A stretch of DNA of 64,000 bases, taken from the NCBI GenBank assembly GCA_016208305.1, contig JACQYI010000006.1, positions 744,001 through 808,000 of the forward strand. Direction: 5' to 3'. Shown piece by piece: positions 3,775 through 14,170 of the stretch (positions within the stretch are counted from its first letter, which is position 1; each line of letters opens with the position of its first letter). The stretch comes from Oscillatoriophycideae cyanobacterium NC_groundwater_1537_Pr4_S-0.65um_50_18 (GTDB taxonomy: Bacteria > Cyanobacteriota > Cyanobacteriia > Elainellales > Elainellaceae). The notes under the pieces are model-generated. The model had not been told where the DNA came from and searched no databases. It saw only the letters and a program-made list of their open reading frames with translations. The position numbers and the translations under genes were made by a program.

Positions 3775-5382
3775 TTACTGCACCACTTGAAATCCAAACT
3801 TTGCGCCTTGAGGAGCAGCGCTGCCAGAAGCCGCTTCGACAAGGATGGGTTTCTCGGTGCGATCGCCCGTAGCAGTAAACTGCAACGGCTCTCCGGCAGT
3901 TTGGTCGGCGGGTAAGTTGATCGATCGCAATGCCTGTAAGACCCCTGGGCGATCGGTCGCGCTTGCCAGTGCAGCGGTTAAGGCTTTAGCGGCATCAAAG
4001 CTGCTGGCCGTCCGCCAACTCACCTGACCCAGCCAGCGCTGAGCGGCTGTTTGGGCATAGGCATTTTGAGGATACCAGGGCACCGCAAGCACCAGCCCTT
4101 TCACCGCTTCGCCACCATCCGTCAGAGTGGCAGGATTATAAAGCGCATCGCCGCCCACAAGCCGCATCTGCTGAGCAGCCGGAAGTTGGGCATTTTCGCG
4201 AGCAACGGCGATCGCCACAGAGGTTGTTTTCGTGCTGGGGAACAGCAAAACGGCTCGCGCAGCGCCAGCGGCTTCTGCAACAGCCGTTTTGATATCCAGC
4301 GAGGGGCTAGACAGATCGACGGGTGGCTGAGGCACCTGACCGCCTTGCTGGGTAAATTTTCCGGTAAAGGCTTGCTGAATGCTGTTGCTGTAGTTGCTAG
4401 CAGAATCGTAGAACACCGCAACCTGCTTGACATTTAGCCTATTCGCTACATAGTCTGCCAGCGTTTCACCCGCTAGCTGATCGGAGGGCACAGTGCGAAA
4501 GAAAGTTTTGCCTGAGAGGACTGTGCTGGTGCTGGTGGGCGAAATCATGGCGAGTCCAGCGCCCTCATAAATGGGCAGCGCTTTGGCCGTCGTGTCGCTG
4601 GAGTTATGCCCAATCACGCCCAAAACATTGGGATCACCCGCCAACTGTTGCGCCACGGCGGCAGCCTGCGTCGGATCATTGCTGTCATTGACCAAAATCA
4701 GCTCAAGTAGCCGCTGGCTGGCTCCCCCAGCATCATTAAACTGGGTTTGGGCATCCGCAGCGCCGCGCAAAATTTCTTCGGCTGAGGTGGCTTGGTTGTC
4801 GATCGGCACTACCACAGCCACCGTCAATGGCGTTCCGGCTTGGCGGGCGCGGGCATTGTTGTAGTAAATTTGCGACTCAGGATCATTGGGAGAGCTTCTG
4901 GTGGCTCTCTCAAACGCCAGAGCGGCCTGGGCATAGTCTCCTTTGGCAAAAGCCTCGATCCCCCGATCGCGATCGAAATTTCCTCGGTAGGTAAACAGCG
5001 TGCGATCGCCGCTGCTGAAGCGATCGGAAGGGGCAGGGGCGATCGAGGCATTGGGAGAACTGGACGACGTGGGGCTAGTCGCAATAGGCGCAGGGGATTT
5101 ACCCGACAGCGACTTCCACAAGAACCAAGCTCCAGCGCCAAACAATGCCAAGAGTAAAGCGGTAATCAGCGCTGCCGCCACCCCCACCCCCGATCGATTG
5201 CCTGCCTGGCCTGAGGCGGCAGCAGCAGGGCGTTTGCCTTTGGTTTCGATCGCTTCTCGAGGCAATCCGCAAATGGCACAATCAGGGCCAAAGTTTTCGT
5301 AGGGCTGATGGGCGAAGGCGTTGGGGTAGTCTTTACCGTCTTTGGGTTTGCCTTCGCATGTCCAGCTTTTTGAGGTTGTCAC
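3775..5382 (-). CDS. membrane-anchored ABC-type receptor/substrate-binding protein
   Basis: A 535-aa protein in three parts. Residues 1-60 carry a small Cys-rich segment (WTCEGKPKDG and CAICGLP) that may bind zinc. A membrane helix follows at about 68-92. The rest is a periplasmic type-1 binding fold of the Leu/Ile/Val or receptor-ligand class: VAVVVPIDN, GVIGHNSSDTT, AMISPTSTST, FFRTVPSDQL. A short TPR-like segment (GDYAQAALAFERATRSSPND) precedes the fold. In cyanobacteria this ligand-binding region is often fused to Ser/Thr kinases; here there is none. No permease or ATPase is adjacent, so a sensory or scavenging role is as likely as transport. The ligand is unknown. Confidence 0.85.
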   Translation of the reverse strand: MTTSKSWTCEGKPKDGKDYPNAFAHQPYENFGPDCAICGLPREAIETKGKRPAAAASGQAGNRSGVGVAAALITALLLALFGAGAWFLWKSLSGKSPAPIATSPTSSSSPNASIAPAPSDRFSSGDRTLFTYRGNFDRDRGIEAFAKGDYAQAALAFERATRSSPNDPESQIYYNNARARQAGTPLTVAVVVPIDNQATSAEEILRGAADAQTQFNDAGGASQRLLELILVNDSNDPTQAAAVAQQLAGDPNVLGVIGHNSSDTTAKALPIYEGAGLAMISPTSTSTVLSGKTFFRTVPSDQLAGETLADYVANRLNVKQVAVFYDSASNYSNSIQQAFTGKFTQQGGQVPQPPVDLSSPSLDIKTAVAEAAGAARAVLLFPSTKTTSVAIAVARENAQLPAAQQMRLVGGDALYNPATLTDGGEAVKGLVLAVPWYPQNAYAQTAAQRWLGQVSWRTASSFDAAKALTAALASATDRPGVLQALRSINLPADQTAGEPLQFTATGDRTEKPILVEAASGSAAPQGAKFGFQVVQ

Positions 5383-7241: not shown

Positions 7242-10175
7242 CTAGCGCCCATCCGTGATTTCCTGAAACCAATCATCGCGGCTCAGTTCACTAAAATTAC
7301 TGTCCGTCTGGGCTTCCTTGCGGTACTTAGGATTAAGGTCGATCGCCTTTTGCAAACTTTCTAACGCCATGTCAGTTTCACCCCGCAGGGCATAGCAGGC
7401 CGCCTTGTTATAGTGGGCGCTGGCGTAGTCGGGCTTAATTTTTAGGGCACGATTGAAGCTCGCGATCGCCTCTTTGTCTCGTCCCAGTTGCAGCAGGGCA
7501 TAGCCACGGCTGTCCCAGGCTTTGGGCGAATCAGACTTGAGCTGCGTCACTTTGTCAAAGGAGGCGATCGCGTCTTCGTAGCGCTCTAGCTCCACCAAAG
7601 ACAGCCCACGATTTAGCCAAGCGGTTGAGTTGTCTGGATCGGTTTCAGTCGCTTTGTCAAAGGCAGCAAATGCCTCTTCGGGGCGCTGCATCGTGCCTAA
7701 GATCACGCCCCGATTCACCCAGGCTTCGTGATAGTCGGGCTTGATTTCTAGGGCTTTGTCAAAGGCAGCGATCGCCTCATCGGGCTGCTTCAGTCGTCCC
7801 AGCGTTACGCCGCGATTGAGCAGCGCCTTGTAGTCGGTGGGCTGGAATTTCAGGGCGCTATCGAAAGCCGCCAAGGCCGCATCATACTGCTTCATTTCCT
7901 TGAGCAGCAGCCCCTGGTGATACCAGGCCACAGCATGATCAGGCTGGAGCTTCAGCAAAGTATCGAAGGCCGTCAGAGCCTCATCGTTGCGCTTCAGCTC
8001 AGCCAAGGCCATCGCGTGCGTCAGCCATAGGGCAGGATTCTCAGGCTGAGTAGCGATCGCCTTTTCCGAGAAGGCAACGGCTGCTTCATGCTGCCCAGAG
8101 GCCAACAGGGTTTCGGCTTGCTCAACGTAGTCAGCAGGGGTATAGAACAGTTCAGGCTGAGTGGTTTTTAGCCCCTCAAACTGGCTGTAGAGTTCATCCA
8201 ATCGCTGCTGGGTCGCAACGATGAAAGAGTCGGCAACGAATTGAGGAGTCACTTCTGACAGCCGCTGCATGATCTGGTCTTTCTCAGCCTGAGCAGCCGC
8301 TTGCAGAGCGTTAAGCTGAGCGGCAACCTCTGTTTCTAGCGTCTGCAAATTCTGAATCGTGACTTCGCGTTGGGTGGTGGCTCCGGCTTGCAGGTCGGCA
8401 AGCTGGTCGGCAAAGCGTCCCTCTAGCCTGTCCAGGTTTTGCCGCATTTTCTCGCGCTGAGTCTGCACATCGGCCTTTAGGGTCATCAGCTGCGCCACCA
8501 GATCGGCTTCAGTTTTTTCTAGGCTCTTGAGGATGGCATCTCGCCGCTCTTTACCGCTGAGCTGAAGCTCGGTCAGCTGGGCTGTAAAGGCTTCCTGAAG
8601 CTGGTTAATTACCTGTTGCAGCTCTTCTTGGCGCACTTGGGCAATGCCCTCTAGCCCCGATCGCTGACTGGCAAAGTCAGACTCTAGGCGATCGAGGGCT
8701 TGCTGAAGTTCGGCTTGTTTGGCCTGCGCCTCGGCCTGCAATCGCGATCGCTCTGCCGCCATTTCGGTTTCGAGCTGGGTCAACAGGCGATCGAGGTCGG
8801 CTCTTTTGGCCTGGGCAACCTGCTGGAGATCGGCCTGCTGCTGGGCAAAAGCAGCATCCAACTGCACCATATTTTGCCGAATCGCCTCTTTCTGGTTTTG
8901 AATATCGGCTTGCAGCTCGGCCAACCGCGCCTTAAATTCGACGCTCATCTGCTGGATATTTTGGCGAATGTCGGCTTTTTGGCGTTCTGTATCAGCCGTC
9001 AGTTCCGATCGCTGAGCCGCGAACTCATCGCCCAAACGCTTGACGCCCTGACGCATTTCGTCGCGCTGGGTCTGGGCTTCGCGCTGAAGTTGCGATCGCT
9101 GATCCGCCAATTCTGCCTGGAGCTGCTCCAGGGTTTGGCGCAGCGCCGTCTGCTGGTTTTGGGTATCGGTCTGAAGCTGGGCGAGGCGCGCCATCAGATC
9201 GCCTCTGAGGCTGTCTAGATTGGCAAAAACCTGCTCTCGTCGCTGGGCGGCATCTGTTTGAATGGCAACCAACTGTCCCGCAAATTCCGCTTCGATCTGG
9301 CGAAGCTGCGTCAGGGTCGATTCCTTGTGCTGCTGGGTTTCAGCTTGAGCCGACTGCCGCAGATCGCTCAGGTAAGGCGATAGCTCTGCTTCTAGCTGTT
9401 CTAAGTGTTGGCGGGTGGCCTCTTGCTGCTGATGGGCAACCAAGCGGAGCGCCTCTAGCTGTCCGGCAAAGTCTGCCCCCGATTGGGCAAGAGTCTGCAA
9501 CACCGCATCTTTTTCAGCTTGCGCCACGCCCTGCAAGTTAGACAGATCGGTTGCAAATCCTGCTTGCACATCACCCAAATGCTGTTTGGCCAAGTCGAGC
9601 TGCTGGGCGATCGCTCCAGCCGTTTCCTGCTGACGTTGCCCTACTTCGGCCATTAGCCGCGCCAGAGTCTCCCGCTTTTCTTCAATATCCTGCTGAAGCG
9701 ATTCGGCATCTTTGCCCAAGTCGTCGGCGTAATTCTCATAATCCCGCAGCAGTTTTTTCACCTCTTGTTTGGCCACGCCAATCTGCCCCTCCAGATCGCC
9801 TAGCTCTTTCAGGTGCGCCTGCACAATGGCCGTGACTTCTCGAATCACCGATCGCCGCAGCAAATACAGTCCGGCGATCGCTGTCGTCAGCAAGACCGCC
9901 AAGACCCCCAGCATAATGTTGAACAGCGTGGTCGTGCGGCTCAGGCTTCTCAGTCGCTCTAGCTCTTGCTGCTCAGGAGAGGAAAGGGCTTGAGCCAACA
10001 GCGGCGAGTTTGCCGATTGCAGCGACATTTTGGCTGTCGGTTGCGCCGTTGCTGCCCCTGCTGTTGCTGTGCCTACGGTCAGCAAAAGAACCGAGAGAAC
10101 CGCGCTACTCCGCGACACCCCTTTGAAGATCTGGTTAAAGTGTCGAGTGAAGATCTGTCGATCCTGGCGCTTCAT
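7242..10175 (-). CDS. membrane-anchored long coiled-coil protein with eight TPRs
   Basis: A 977-aa protein from the ATG at 10175, preceded by GGGGGA; a TTG 21 bp upstream is less likely. Order: signal-like hydrophobic segment (about 24-45), a low-complexity stretch, a membrane helix (about 84-107, LFNIMLGVLAVLLTTAIAGL), charged helix, then residues 191-629 made of fifteen units of exactly 29 residues, and finally eight 34-residue TPRs (about 680-955) and a short tail. Predicted topology places the rod and TPRs in the cytoplasm if the first segment is cleaved. TPRs usually bind protein partners, so this looks like a long tether or scaffold. I do not recognise an ortholog with a known role. Confidence 0.85.
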   Translation of the reverse strand: MKRQDRQIFTRHFNQIFKGVSRSSAVLSVLLLTVGTATAGAATAQPTAKMSLQSANSPLLAQALSSPEQQELERLRSLSRTTTLFNIMLGVLAVLLTTAIAGLYLLRRSVIREVTAIVQAHLKELGDLEGQIGVAKQEVKKLLRDYENYADDLGKDAESLQQDIEEKRETLARLMAEVGQRQQETAGAIAQQLDLAKQHLGDVQAGFATDLSNLQGVAQAEKDAVLQTLAQSGADFAGQLEALRLVAHQQQEATRQHLEQLEAELSPYLSDLRQSAQAETQQHKESTLTQLRQIEAEFAGQLVAIQTDAAQRREQVFANLDSLRGDLMARLAQLQTDTQNQQTALRQTLEQLQAELADQRSQLQREAQTQRDEMRQGVKRLGDEFAAQRSELTADTERQKADIRQNIQQMSVEFKARLAELQADIQNQKEAIRQNMVQLDAAFAQQQADLQQVAQAKRADLDRLLTQLETEMAAERSRLQAEAQAKQAELQQALDRLESDFASQRSGLEGIAQVRQEELQQVINQLQEAFTAQLTELQLSGKERRDAILKSLEKTEADLVAQLMTLKADVQTQREKMRQNLDRLEGRFADQLADLQAGATTQREVTIQNLQTLETEVAAQLNALQAAAQAEKDQIMQRLSEVTPQFVADSFIVATQQRLDELYSQFEGLKTTQPELFYTPADYVEQAETLLASGQHEAAVAFSEKAIATQPENPALWLTHAMALAELKRNDEALTAFDTLLKLQPDHAVAWYHQGLLLKEMKQYDAALAAFDSALKFQPTDYKALLNRGVTLGRLKQPDEAIAAFDKALEIKPDYHEAWVNRGVILGTMQRPEEAFAAFDKATETDPDNSTAWLNRGLSLVELERYEDAIASFDKVTQLKSDSPKAWDSRGYALLQLGRDKEAIASFNRALKIKPDYASAHYNKAACYALRGETDMALESLQKAIDLNPKYRKEAQTDSNFSELSRDDWFQEITDGR
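8289..9605 (-). repeat. fifteen 87-bp (29-residue) in-frame repeat units
   Basis: Aligning the coiled-coil region gives 15 units of 29 residues with one 4-residue insertion (AETQ) before unit 4. Shared positions include a start such as TQR/NQK/AKR, a hydrophobic residue at 6 and 10, QLxxEFAxQ in the middle, and LxxLQxxAQ at the end; TQRDEMRQGV, NQKEAIRQNM and TQREKMRQNL are three unit starts. The 29-residue period is 7+11+11, or 3.625 residues per turn, which predicts a nearly untwisted coiled coil. Units have diverged in DNA sequence, so the array is old. Confidence 0.9.
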
Positions 10176-10568
10176 CTCATTCCCCCTGTCGGTCAAGCTG
10201 AGCTTGGTGATTCATCTTGTCAGTTATTATCTCAGACGGTCAGGGTCTCTTGCCAAAAGAGCTTTTGCCAAAAGACCTGTTGCACCCAGATCGCACCTCT
10301 GCTCAAGGCATGACTCTAGGCAGCAGCCTGCAAAAAATCATGGCCTGAAATACCACTCCCTCAAGGTTAGTCAAAAAACGGGGAGATGGATGACTTCGGC
10401 TCGTTATGGCTCGTTATAGCTACAGCATTCACCAATGGCTTGTGAAGGAGGCGCAGGAATTTTAGCCCTCGTTGGCTAGACTGCGTGCAAGAGGCAACCG
10501 ACCTCGTAAACTGGTAGGTAGCGATAGATTTCTCGATCTGTCTTCAAACTATTACCCACCTGCAAAGC
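10176..10568. other. divergent intergenic region between the coiled-coil gene and pheS
   Basis: No gene is seen in these 393 bp. They must contain promoters for both divergent genes, though no clear -35/-10 pair stands out. Two short direct repeats are present: TGCCAAAAGA at 10251-10260 and 10266-10275, and GGCTCGTTAT in perfect tandem at 10398-10407 and 10408-10417. The second pair lies about 150 bp before pheS. No T-box or obvious attenuator hairpin was recognised. Confidence 0.5.
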
Positions 10569-11635: not shown

Positions 11636-11881
11636 TTTGCAAGCGGTTTAATTGATCTATGAAATTTATTGAGAGGCGTTCGGAGCGTACCTTTCAATAA
11701 ATTTGATAACCGGATTAAGCACTGCTGCCAAAATTTTGTGGAACCAAATGGGTTCTCTCCAGTCACTAGCTTTAACTGGCACATAGGTACGGCAAATGAC
11801 ACAACGAGCGATCGGCAAGATAACCGATCGGCTTCAGTTTGCTGCGCCTACTTCCCACTGCTTAGGCGATCAGGAGAATTT

Positions 11882-14170
11882 ATGTCTTATCCCTCTTCCA
11901 ACCCAGGTTTTACCTCCAATCCGTTAGATACAAAAGCCAAATTACAAACTCAAGGCGATCGCAAAAATTCCTTAAGTGCGAATTCTGTTAAATCCTTGCG
12001 GCCTCAATCCAATCGGGCTAATCGGGCAAGCTCCTCTAAGAAGAGCGGTTTTCAGTTTGTAAAAACACCCTATCTGCAAATTCAGGCTTCTGGATCAACG
12101 CTGGGCGGCAACACCATCGGCAATGCTCAAAATTTGGGGAACCTCAGTGGGCAGTCCTCTTACGGTCGCAGTGACTCAGTGGGCAGCAGTAACGCCAGCG
12201 ATTTCTTTAAGTTCACCTTAACCAAAGCTTCCAAGGTAAAGCTGGGTCTTAGCAATCTCTCAGACAATGCCAACTTGTGGCTGCTGAAAGCAAATGGCAA
12301 TGCCATGACCAAATCGACCCGCAGCGGCACCAAAACCGAGTCGATTCAAGGCAACTTGAAGGCAGGAACTTACTATGTTCAGGTTGCGACCAATGCCAAC
12401 AATGCCAACTACAGCCTGAATCTTAAGGGTTCCGGAGGATCGAGCGATGCAGGCAACACCCAAACTAAGGCGCTTGATGCAGGCAACCTCAGCCGTACCC
12501 AACGTCGCTATCGGGGACAGGTAGGCAGCAGCGATCCGGCTGATTATTACCGGGTAGATCTGTCAGAAGGGGGCAGCATCAAGCTGGCGGCCAGCGGCAT
12601 CAGTGGCGACATTGATTTGCAGCTACTCAACAGCAGCGGTGTGGCGATCGCCAGGTCTACTAACGATGGCAAAGCAAACGAGTCTATTAACCAGACTGTT
12701 GCACCGGGCACCTATTTCGTGCAGGTTTCGCCTTTTAGTAACGGCAAGTCTAACTACACGCTAGATATGTCCTCTAACTACACAGGGCAGTCTAACAGTC
12801 CAGTGCCCTCACCTTCCTCTAGCCCCTCAAACAGTCCTTCATCCAGCCCTTCTCCCAGCCCCTCGCCAGGTTCTCCTTCCAGTAATCCAACAGGTGATCC
12901 AGGCAATACGCTAGGCAGCGCCGAAGCGAAGTCATCTGCCGCCTTCTCTCGCACCCAGCAAGTCAACAAAGACGACAAAGATTATTATCGGTTTAACGTC
13001 AGTCAGTCGGGCGTATTTACCGCCAGCCTCACTGGACTCTCAGGCGATGCCGACGTGAAGCTGATTCAAGACAAAAATAATAACGGGTCGATCGATCAAG
13101 GTGAAGTGCTGGGCTGGCAGTGGGAATGGGGTACGGGCAGCGAGAACATTCGCCGTTTCCTCTCAGCCGGAAATTACTTCGTTGAGGTCATGGGCTACGG
13201 CAGCGAGATGAAGAACTACACGCTGAATACCACCTTTAACGCCCAAGGCAGCGACGATCGCAAGTTCTCGATCAACCTAAATTACAAAGATGGGTTGGAC
13301 GGCGTTAGCTCTACCGTGCGCAATGCGCTGGTGGACGCGACCAAAATTTGGGAAAACGTCATTCCCTCTAGCAGCTTTAACGGCGCACATACCCTCAACA
13401 TTGATGTCGTGGGCATCAACAGCTCGCAAGATTGGCTGGCAGCAGCAACCAATACAGGCGGACAAACTGCCGCCAATGGCAAATGGCTGCCAACCACTGG
13501 AACAGTGAGGATTAACACCAGCTACGCCAACACCTTCAACAACAACCCTGACTATCTCAAAGGCATTGTCGCCCATGAGTTAGCCCATGTGCTGGGGATT
13601 GGCACCATCTGGGAGAAAAATGGCAACAGCTTGGTTAGCCGCTCGACCAACAGCTACAAAGCCGACAGCTATGCAGGTCGCGCCTATGGTGAATTGACCG
13701 GATCGCTGCAACCGACCGCCGTTCCAGTTGAGGCAGGCTCTTACGGACACTGGGACGAAAGCACCTTACAAGAGGAACTGCTCACCCCCTATGCCGAGAG
13801 CATTGGCACCAAAATGCCCCTCAGTTCGGTCACGATCGCCTCTCTGCGAGATTTAGGCTGGAACGTCAACTATGGCGCAGCAGAAAACTTCTCTTTGAGT
13901 CAGTCGATCAGGCCCGAAGGGTTAACGTCTGATGCAGTGGGCAGCACTAATCCTGCTGTAGCGATCGCGATCGACAGCTACTCCCCCAGTTTCCAGTCCA
14001 TTCAAGGAGCAGGAGCCGATATAGAAGCTACCCGCTGCCAATGTGGAAGCTGTGCAACGACAAGAGCCTCTCTAGGACTAAATACCATCGGCTCGACGAG
14101 CTTCTCGGATGCGATCGCGTCCAGTGGTTCAGGCAACGATGTAACCGCTTCTAAGTGGTCAGTGATTTAG
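11882..14170 (+). CDS. PPC-domain protein with leishmanolysin-like zinc metallopeptidase domain
   Basis: A 762-aa protein from the ATG at 11882, which has CAGGAG just upstream; the frame extends to 11669 but that part looks non-coding. Three bacterial pre-peptidase (PPC) beta-sandwich domains lie at about 74-181, 189-297 and 339-457, with a Ser/Pro-rich linker at 300-340. The peptidase domain follows: HELAHVLGIG at 565-574 gives the HExxH zinc site, and GHWDE (H623) is a plausible third ligand, as in family M8. A Met in the region after it could supply the Met-turn. PPC domains are typical of secreted proteins, but no classical signal peptide is visible. Substrate unknown. Confidence 0.85.
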   Translation: MSYPSSNPGFTSNPLDTKAKLQTQGDRKNSLSANSVKSLRPQSNRANRASSSKKSGFQFVKTPYLQIQASGSTLGGNTIGNAQNLGNLSGQSSYGRSDSVGSSNASDFFKFTLTKASKVKLGLSNLSDNANLWLLKANGNAMTKSTRSGTKTESIQGNLKAGTYYVQVATNANNANYSLNLKGSGGSSDAGNTQTKALDAGNLSRTQRRYRGQVGSSDPADYYRVDLSEGGSIKLAASGISGDIDLQLLNSSGVAIARSTNDGKANESINQTVAPGTYFVQVSPFSNGKSNYTLDMSSNYTGQSNSPVPSPSSSPSNSPSSSPSPSPSPGSPSSNPTGDPGNTLGSAEAKSSAAFSRTQQVNKDDKDYYRFNVSQSGVFTASLTGLSGDADVKLIQDKNNNGSIDQGEVLGWQWEWGTGSENIRRFLSAGNYFVEVMGYGSEMKNYTLNTTFNAQGSDDRKFSINLNYKDGLDGVSSTVRNALVDATKIWENVIPSSSFNGAHTLNIDVVGINSSQDWLAAATNTGGQTAANGKWLPTTGTVRINTSYANTFNNNPDYLKGIVAHELAHVLGIGTIWEKNGNSLVSRSTNSYKADSYAGRAYGELTGSLQPTAVPVEAGSYGHWDESTLQEELLTPYAESIGTKMPLSSVTIASLRDLGWNVNYGAAENFSLSQSIRPEGLTSDAVGSTNPAVAIAIDSYSPSFQSIQGAGADIEATRCQCGSCATTRASLGLNTIGSTSFSDAIASSGSGNDVTASKWSVI

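Follow-up and report, generated by a model that had tools for sequence, protein, structure and literature searches.

A protein encoded by an Elainellaceae cyanobacterium features a rod of fifteen consecutive 29-residue units, lodged between a membrane helix and eight TPRs. Its gene resides in the window, the stretch of 64,000 nucleotides analyzed here as a whole. Rods of the same type, found in ~70 orthologs, contain about 7 to 21 in-phase units, and differ in length mostly by whole units or whole helical turns. The protein may be viewed as a cytoplasmic, membrane-tied spacer of adjustable length, bearing its TPR domain ~65–85 nm from the membrane, a reading to which we assign a probability of about 0.6.

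Table 1. Features of the rod gene (window positions)
Feature	Residues	Position	Strand	Remarks
Whole gene	977 aa, from ATG	7242..10175	-	signal-like N-terminus, membrane helix, 29-residue rod, 8 TPRs
N-terminal hydrophobic stretch	~22-45	10041..10112	-	closes in a signal-peptidase-like Ala-x-Ala (heuristic pattern)
Membrane helix	81-106	9858..9935	-	followed by conserved LLRRSVIREV
Juxtamembrane helical region	113-190	9606..9839	-	conserved; family signature, ortholog query
Rod	191-629	8289..9605	-	fifteen 29-residue units + 4 residues
Special 33-residue unit	~249-285	9321..9431	-	E-L-S-P-Y-L, P267, then +4 phase step
Partial 16th unit, junction and linker helix	630-677	8145..8288	-	conserved V-T-P-Q-F-V-A-D-S-F; linker leads to TPRs
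Eight TPRs	680-947	7335..8138	-	16 helices, pLDDT mostly >90; short C-terminal helices follow

Repeat units of the rod

The 439 residues of the rod measure 15 x 29 + 4 and map exactly onto the interval in which an earlier note had read fifteen units. Residues 29 positions apart are identical in 123/410 cases (30%), vs 10.3 +/- 1.5% in shuffles, and hydrophobicity at this lag is autocorrelated with r = 0.53. In 20,000 block-preserving shuffles, neither the identity nor the hydrophobicity correlation was ever equalled. The period thus passes the autocorrelation check on which the earlier note had made it depend. Self-identity at lags 28 and 30 is below background, and spectral peaks are exact harmonics of 29 (13, 8, 7 and 5 of 29). 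Among eleven consecutive units, mean identity is 31% for residues and 48% for bases, so the units are old and do not form a DNA tandem array of recent origin.

All orthologs served to train a circular profile of 29 states, which located 734 complete units in these proteins. In the window protein, the profile finds units in phase from 198 to 639, apart from a single net shift of +4 around residue 277. The decayed sixteenth unit suspected earlier corresponds to a partial unit at 626–639, and ends at the P644 junction. Similarly, the four extra residues previously taken as an insertion do exist, yet are not incidental, being part of a conserved, usually proline-bearing unit of 33 residues. Most rods outside Nostocaceae carry one such unit, marked by a motif like E-L/F-x-P-Y/Q-L ... 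Q-Q-x-K/R-D and followed by a +4 change of phase. Its proline, P267 in the window protein, is the sole proline of the rod. The residue is found in 27 of 35 aligned orthologs, and a subclade devoid of it retains the +4 step. About 2 to 17 units precede the landmark, and about 2 to 13 follow it, in different genomes, denoting that units have been gained and lost on both sides.

Helix geometry and predicted structure

Units of 29 residues making 8 turns correspond to 3.625 residues per turn. When the 734 ortholog units are drawn on a wheel of this pitch, the bulky positions (17, 28, 10, 21, 3, 14, 25) fall in one stripe of 75 degrees. Polar residues are nearly absent from the stripe, except at position 25 (13%), and 72% of the units carry Lys/Arg at position 7, on its border. 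The face opposite the Leu stripe features Ala/Ser/Thr at positions 1, 19, 23 and 26. Core residues are spaced 4-3-4-3-4-4-3-4, a pattern described equally well by 7+11+11 and by four heptads with one skip residue added. An arrangement with two opposed Leu stripes was considered and discarded, the 13/29 harmonic being an alias of the second harmonic of 8/29, and the bulky residues falling in one stripe.

An unchanging hydrophobic stripe entails little supercoiling, according to standard coiled-coil geometry. An AlphaFold2 model built from nine sequences features one uninterrupted helix at 82–639, mostly at low confidence (pLDDT 50–70), and as a single-chain model cannot reveal pairing. At 1.485 Å per residue, the repeats alone would measure ~65 nm, and ~85 nm would separate the membrane helix from the TPRs. 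The earlier note had envisaged a continuous helix of constant period forming a nearly straight rod of ~65 nm: the helix is predicted by the model and the period is present, while straightness, and a nearly unsupercoiled state, are what this geometry would predict. A lone single helix of the E/K type was rejected, since the Leu stripe is continuous and the rod is rich in Q, A and L. Searches for solved structures similar to the rod by sequence found none.

The TPR region was recognized by the Pfam TPR_1 profile (4.7e-55, 6 stretches), and is made by tandem 34-residue repeats as in other TPR proteins. The layout proposed earlier, membrane helix, rod, eight TPRs, is thus confirmed by Pfam for the TPRs and by the helices of the model, in which the region is predicted to fold as a canonical 8-TPR superhelix. 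This resembles consensus TPR and O-GlcNAc transferase (OGT) structures. The window protein has no catalytic domain, and its likeness to OGT is a general TPR resemblance only.

Distribution of the family

Searches with the window protein alone identified 8 close relatives, one in Drouetiella hepatica (locus L121). The N-terminal 180 residues used as query matched in 50 of 98 cyanobacterial relatives, and by a profile of 130 columns of the N-terminal domain, 81 out of 386 genomes in the phylum contain the family, weak and rod-less members included. When 194 genomes were searched with a profile of rod pieces, 30 genomes of Cyanobacteriia matched at E <= 1e-5, and the N-terminal domain profile matches in every one of these. 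Two genomes from a remote family of the phylum match the rod profile weakly (6.6e-6). Nearly all the fetched orthologs, which belong to many cyanobacterial families, show the same order of domains: a hydrophobic start with Ala-x-Ala, a membrane helix ending in an LRRSV-like motif, the rod, the TPRs. In a second group of relatives (e.g. L090, L161-L166), the N-terminal region and its membrane helix are shared and TPRs come after them, but the rod is missing, and no in-phase 29-residue unit was found in these proteins. Among the matches listed, plasmid records gave hits of the TPR type only.

All the rod matches in the genome of the window fall within one gene, whose frame opens at 10196 if initiated at TTG. 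In one genome (G204), matches reside in two short open frames of 488 and 330 aa on contigs C53 and C113, which may reflect a split in the assembly, a gene that has been broken, or a further copy.

No conserved gene neighbourhood suggestive of function was found around the ortholog loci. The genes flanking the window gene, pheS upstream and a PF12831 oxidoreductase downstream, were discarded as clues, since only some of the closest relatives keep them. ORFs resembling FAD-dependent oxidoreductases lie near the rod gene in nine loci (L140, L144, L146, L147, L149-L151, L156, L157); the PF12831 protein adjoins the window rod gene in a different arrangement. Elsewhere in the window, an 833-aa ORF (11669–14170), inspected by eye, combines a linker rich in Ser and Pro with beta-rich segments that recur and a zinc-protease-like motif, HELAHVLGIG, and looks like a secreted metalloprotease with domains of the pre-peptidase C-terminal type. 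A 535-aa protein (3775–5382) matches PF13458, a periplasmic ligand-binding domain (5e-29); it also shows a single hydrophobic segment of membrane type and, weakly, a stretch resembling TPRs.

Length changes

Fourteen orthologs share with the window protein the exact distance between membrane helix and TPRs in full-length alignments, and in the distant same-length orthologs tested, units at the same position are just 44–53% identical. Other orthologs differ by -29, -58 or +29 residues, or by combinations with 4, 7, 11, 18, 25, 33, 43 and 54. Differences in rod length cluster at 29, 58 and 116, or at values that keep the phase (4, 7, 11, 18, 22, 25, 33, 62), and when related rods are compared in pairs, gap sizes peak at 4, 7, 11, 22, 25, 29, 33, 58 and 62. 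As descriptive figures, because related sequences are treated as independent, and with the proviso that gap placement within repeats can favour in-phase solutions, of 260 gaps of at least 3 residues in related pairs, 58 equal 29 or a multiple of it and a further 143 correspond to whole turns (77% together, vs 31% by chance). Net phase steps between long in-phase runs, to be read as descriptive for the same reason, are whole-turn in 81% of 110 cases (28.6% expected), and are chiefly +4 and +22.

The unit-wise indels anticipated in the earlier note were thus found (29, 58), but are accompanied by changes of 4, 7, 11, 18, 22 and 25 residues. Its case for abandoning the repeat, indels unrelated to the 29-residue units, was not borne out, changes being mostly unit-wise or phase-preserving. 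Rods plausibly change by whole units or turns because only such changes hold the hydrophobic stripe in register, as a paired helix needs.

Some rods feature other periods. In L062, a run of 18-residue steps replaces some of the 29-residue units; repeats of 51 residues are found in L148 and L154, and of 55 residues in L136, all near whole turns. These runs suggest duplications of other phase-keeping lengths. Nearly identical 58-residue tandem copies in L083 make a recent duplication of two units visible.

Comparison with known systems

The earlier note knew of no named family with this layout; for the repeat itself, this is wrong. In proteins of the SF-assemblin/beta-giardin family, 29-residue motifs, each of four heptads and a skip residue, follow one another to give a segmented coiled coil, and these proteins assemble into 2-nm protofilaments (PMC8435291, PMC6070942). 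The same four heptads plus one skip residue per 29 residues are found in the rods described here. PF06705, the profile of this family, is the Pfam entry closest to the window rod (41.2 bits, cut-off 30.6), and aligned lengths in rod and profile are equal over about four units. When one residue per unit is removed, setting the period to 28, the match is lost, and taxilin, myosin tail and crescentin profiles match instead, pointing to the period as the shared feature. PF06705 scores exceed the cut-off in just 2 of 146 genomes, and a rod from Nostocaceae scores 16.2 bits. Since most cyanobacterial rods remain below the cut-off, convergence on the same period may be a simpler reading than common descent, judging from these profile scores.

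SF-assemblin and beta-giardin are eukaryotic proteins of ~30 kDa, with a non-helical head, without membrane helix or TPRs, and form 2-nm filaments. In contrast to these naked rods, the rod of the window protein is preceded by a membrane helix and followed by eight TPRs. Rods made by 28-residue heptads, of the crescentin or intermediate filament type, are not matched, in keeping with the low self-identity at lag 28.

A cyanobacterial TPR protein, All4981 of Anabaena, has been linked to cytoskeleton and septum, and coiled-coil-rich and TPR proteins of cyanobacteria can polymerise (PMC7002697). All4981 measures ~650 aa, its predicted coiled coil corresponds to its TPRs, and no 29-residue rod is described; it is set apart on this description. 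That work, a survey of coiled-coil proteins in cyanobacteria, tested nine candidates picked because they resemble intermediate-filament proteins; in the text consulted, the window protein is not among them. Literature searches found no description of the membrane-tethered TPR layout, or of length variation by units.

Topology and putative function

A simple heuristic pattern, used in place of a trained predictor, recognized signal-peptide-like starts in 71 of the 73 orthologs with a rod. K and R residues average 3.5 after the membrane helix, vs 1.9 before it. Taken together, these data indicate that the C-terminal part, rod and TPRs, is most likely cytoplasmic, whether or not the N-terminal start is cleaved. 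The N-terminus would be exported, and the single membrane helix would bring the chain back into the cytoplasm. Pairing of the 29-residue units, in the simplest case as a parallel coiled coil, would then yield a rod with almost no supercoil that holds the 8-TPR superhelix off the membrane, and the distal superhelix is a putative docking site for peptide or protein partners. The rod would evolve in length chiefly as whole units or turns are added or removed. The threefold range in length over the phylum indicates that no one distance is required universally, and the existence of relatives without rod that distance is dispensable in these.

By analogy with the filament-forming members of the SF-assemblin/beta-giardin family, rods could instead join laterally and end to end into a fibre or mesh fixed to the membrane, from which the TPRs would project as side arms. 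The small residues at positions 1, 19, 23 and 26 could provide a second face for lateral packing, and polymerisation has precedents among cyanobacterial proteins rich in coiled coils or TPRs. However, outward small residues may merely favour helix formation, and every chain has its rod joined to a membrane helix and to a large TPR domain, in contrast to SF-assemblin; a filament is rather unlikely. Less probable still is that the chain folds back into a multi-helix bundle, or that chains from two membranes pair in antiparallel fashion, in which case the rod would measure less than 65 nm, or its tip would not be free. The proline of the 33-residue unit, with its +4 step, would be a natural hinge, and model confidence within the rod reaches its minimum there (265–283); as to antiparallel pairing, sequence cannot tell the orientation of chains. 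Against a fold-back, the model shows no hairpin, the rod contains one proline and few Gly, the proline is missing in five of 15 same-length sequences, and the landmark lies anywhere from ~2 to ~17 units along the rod, which is unsuited to a fixed turn.

Membrane-lying 11-residue repeats also feature an unsupercoiled stripe. A long amphipathic helix lying flat on the membrane, as in apolipoproteins or perilipins, would fit the straight stripe at 3.625 residues per turn and the weak match to the Apolipoprotein profile, but is very improbable, as this match (29.2 bits) is far below the cut-off of 90, the rod is strongly acidic (net charge -21; -1.7 per unit over the 734 ortholog units), hence unfavourable on anionic cyanobacterial membranes, and the stripe is narrow, with Leu/Phe/Ile in heptad/hendecad spacing.

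The spacer reading can be extended, speculatively, to a bacterial counterpart, anchored in the membrane, of the striated-rootlet rod of eukaryotes, in which units would act as a countable ruler for the distance of the TPR platform, tuned in each lineage, and rods might bundle into a fibre. Whatever its function, the rod indicates that 29-residue repeats of the SF-assemblin type also occur in bacteria. Its changes in length across the phylum, mostly by whole units or turns, are a clean natural experiment on the evolution of rods, and it provides a scaffold of known unit length. If the protein is indeed a spacer, removal or addition of units would make the importance of distance from the membrane directly testable in a bacterium.
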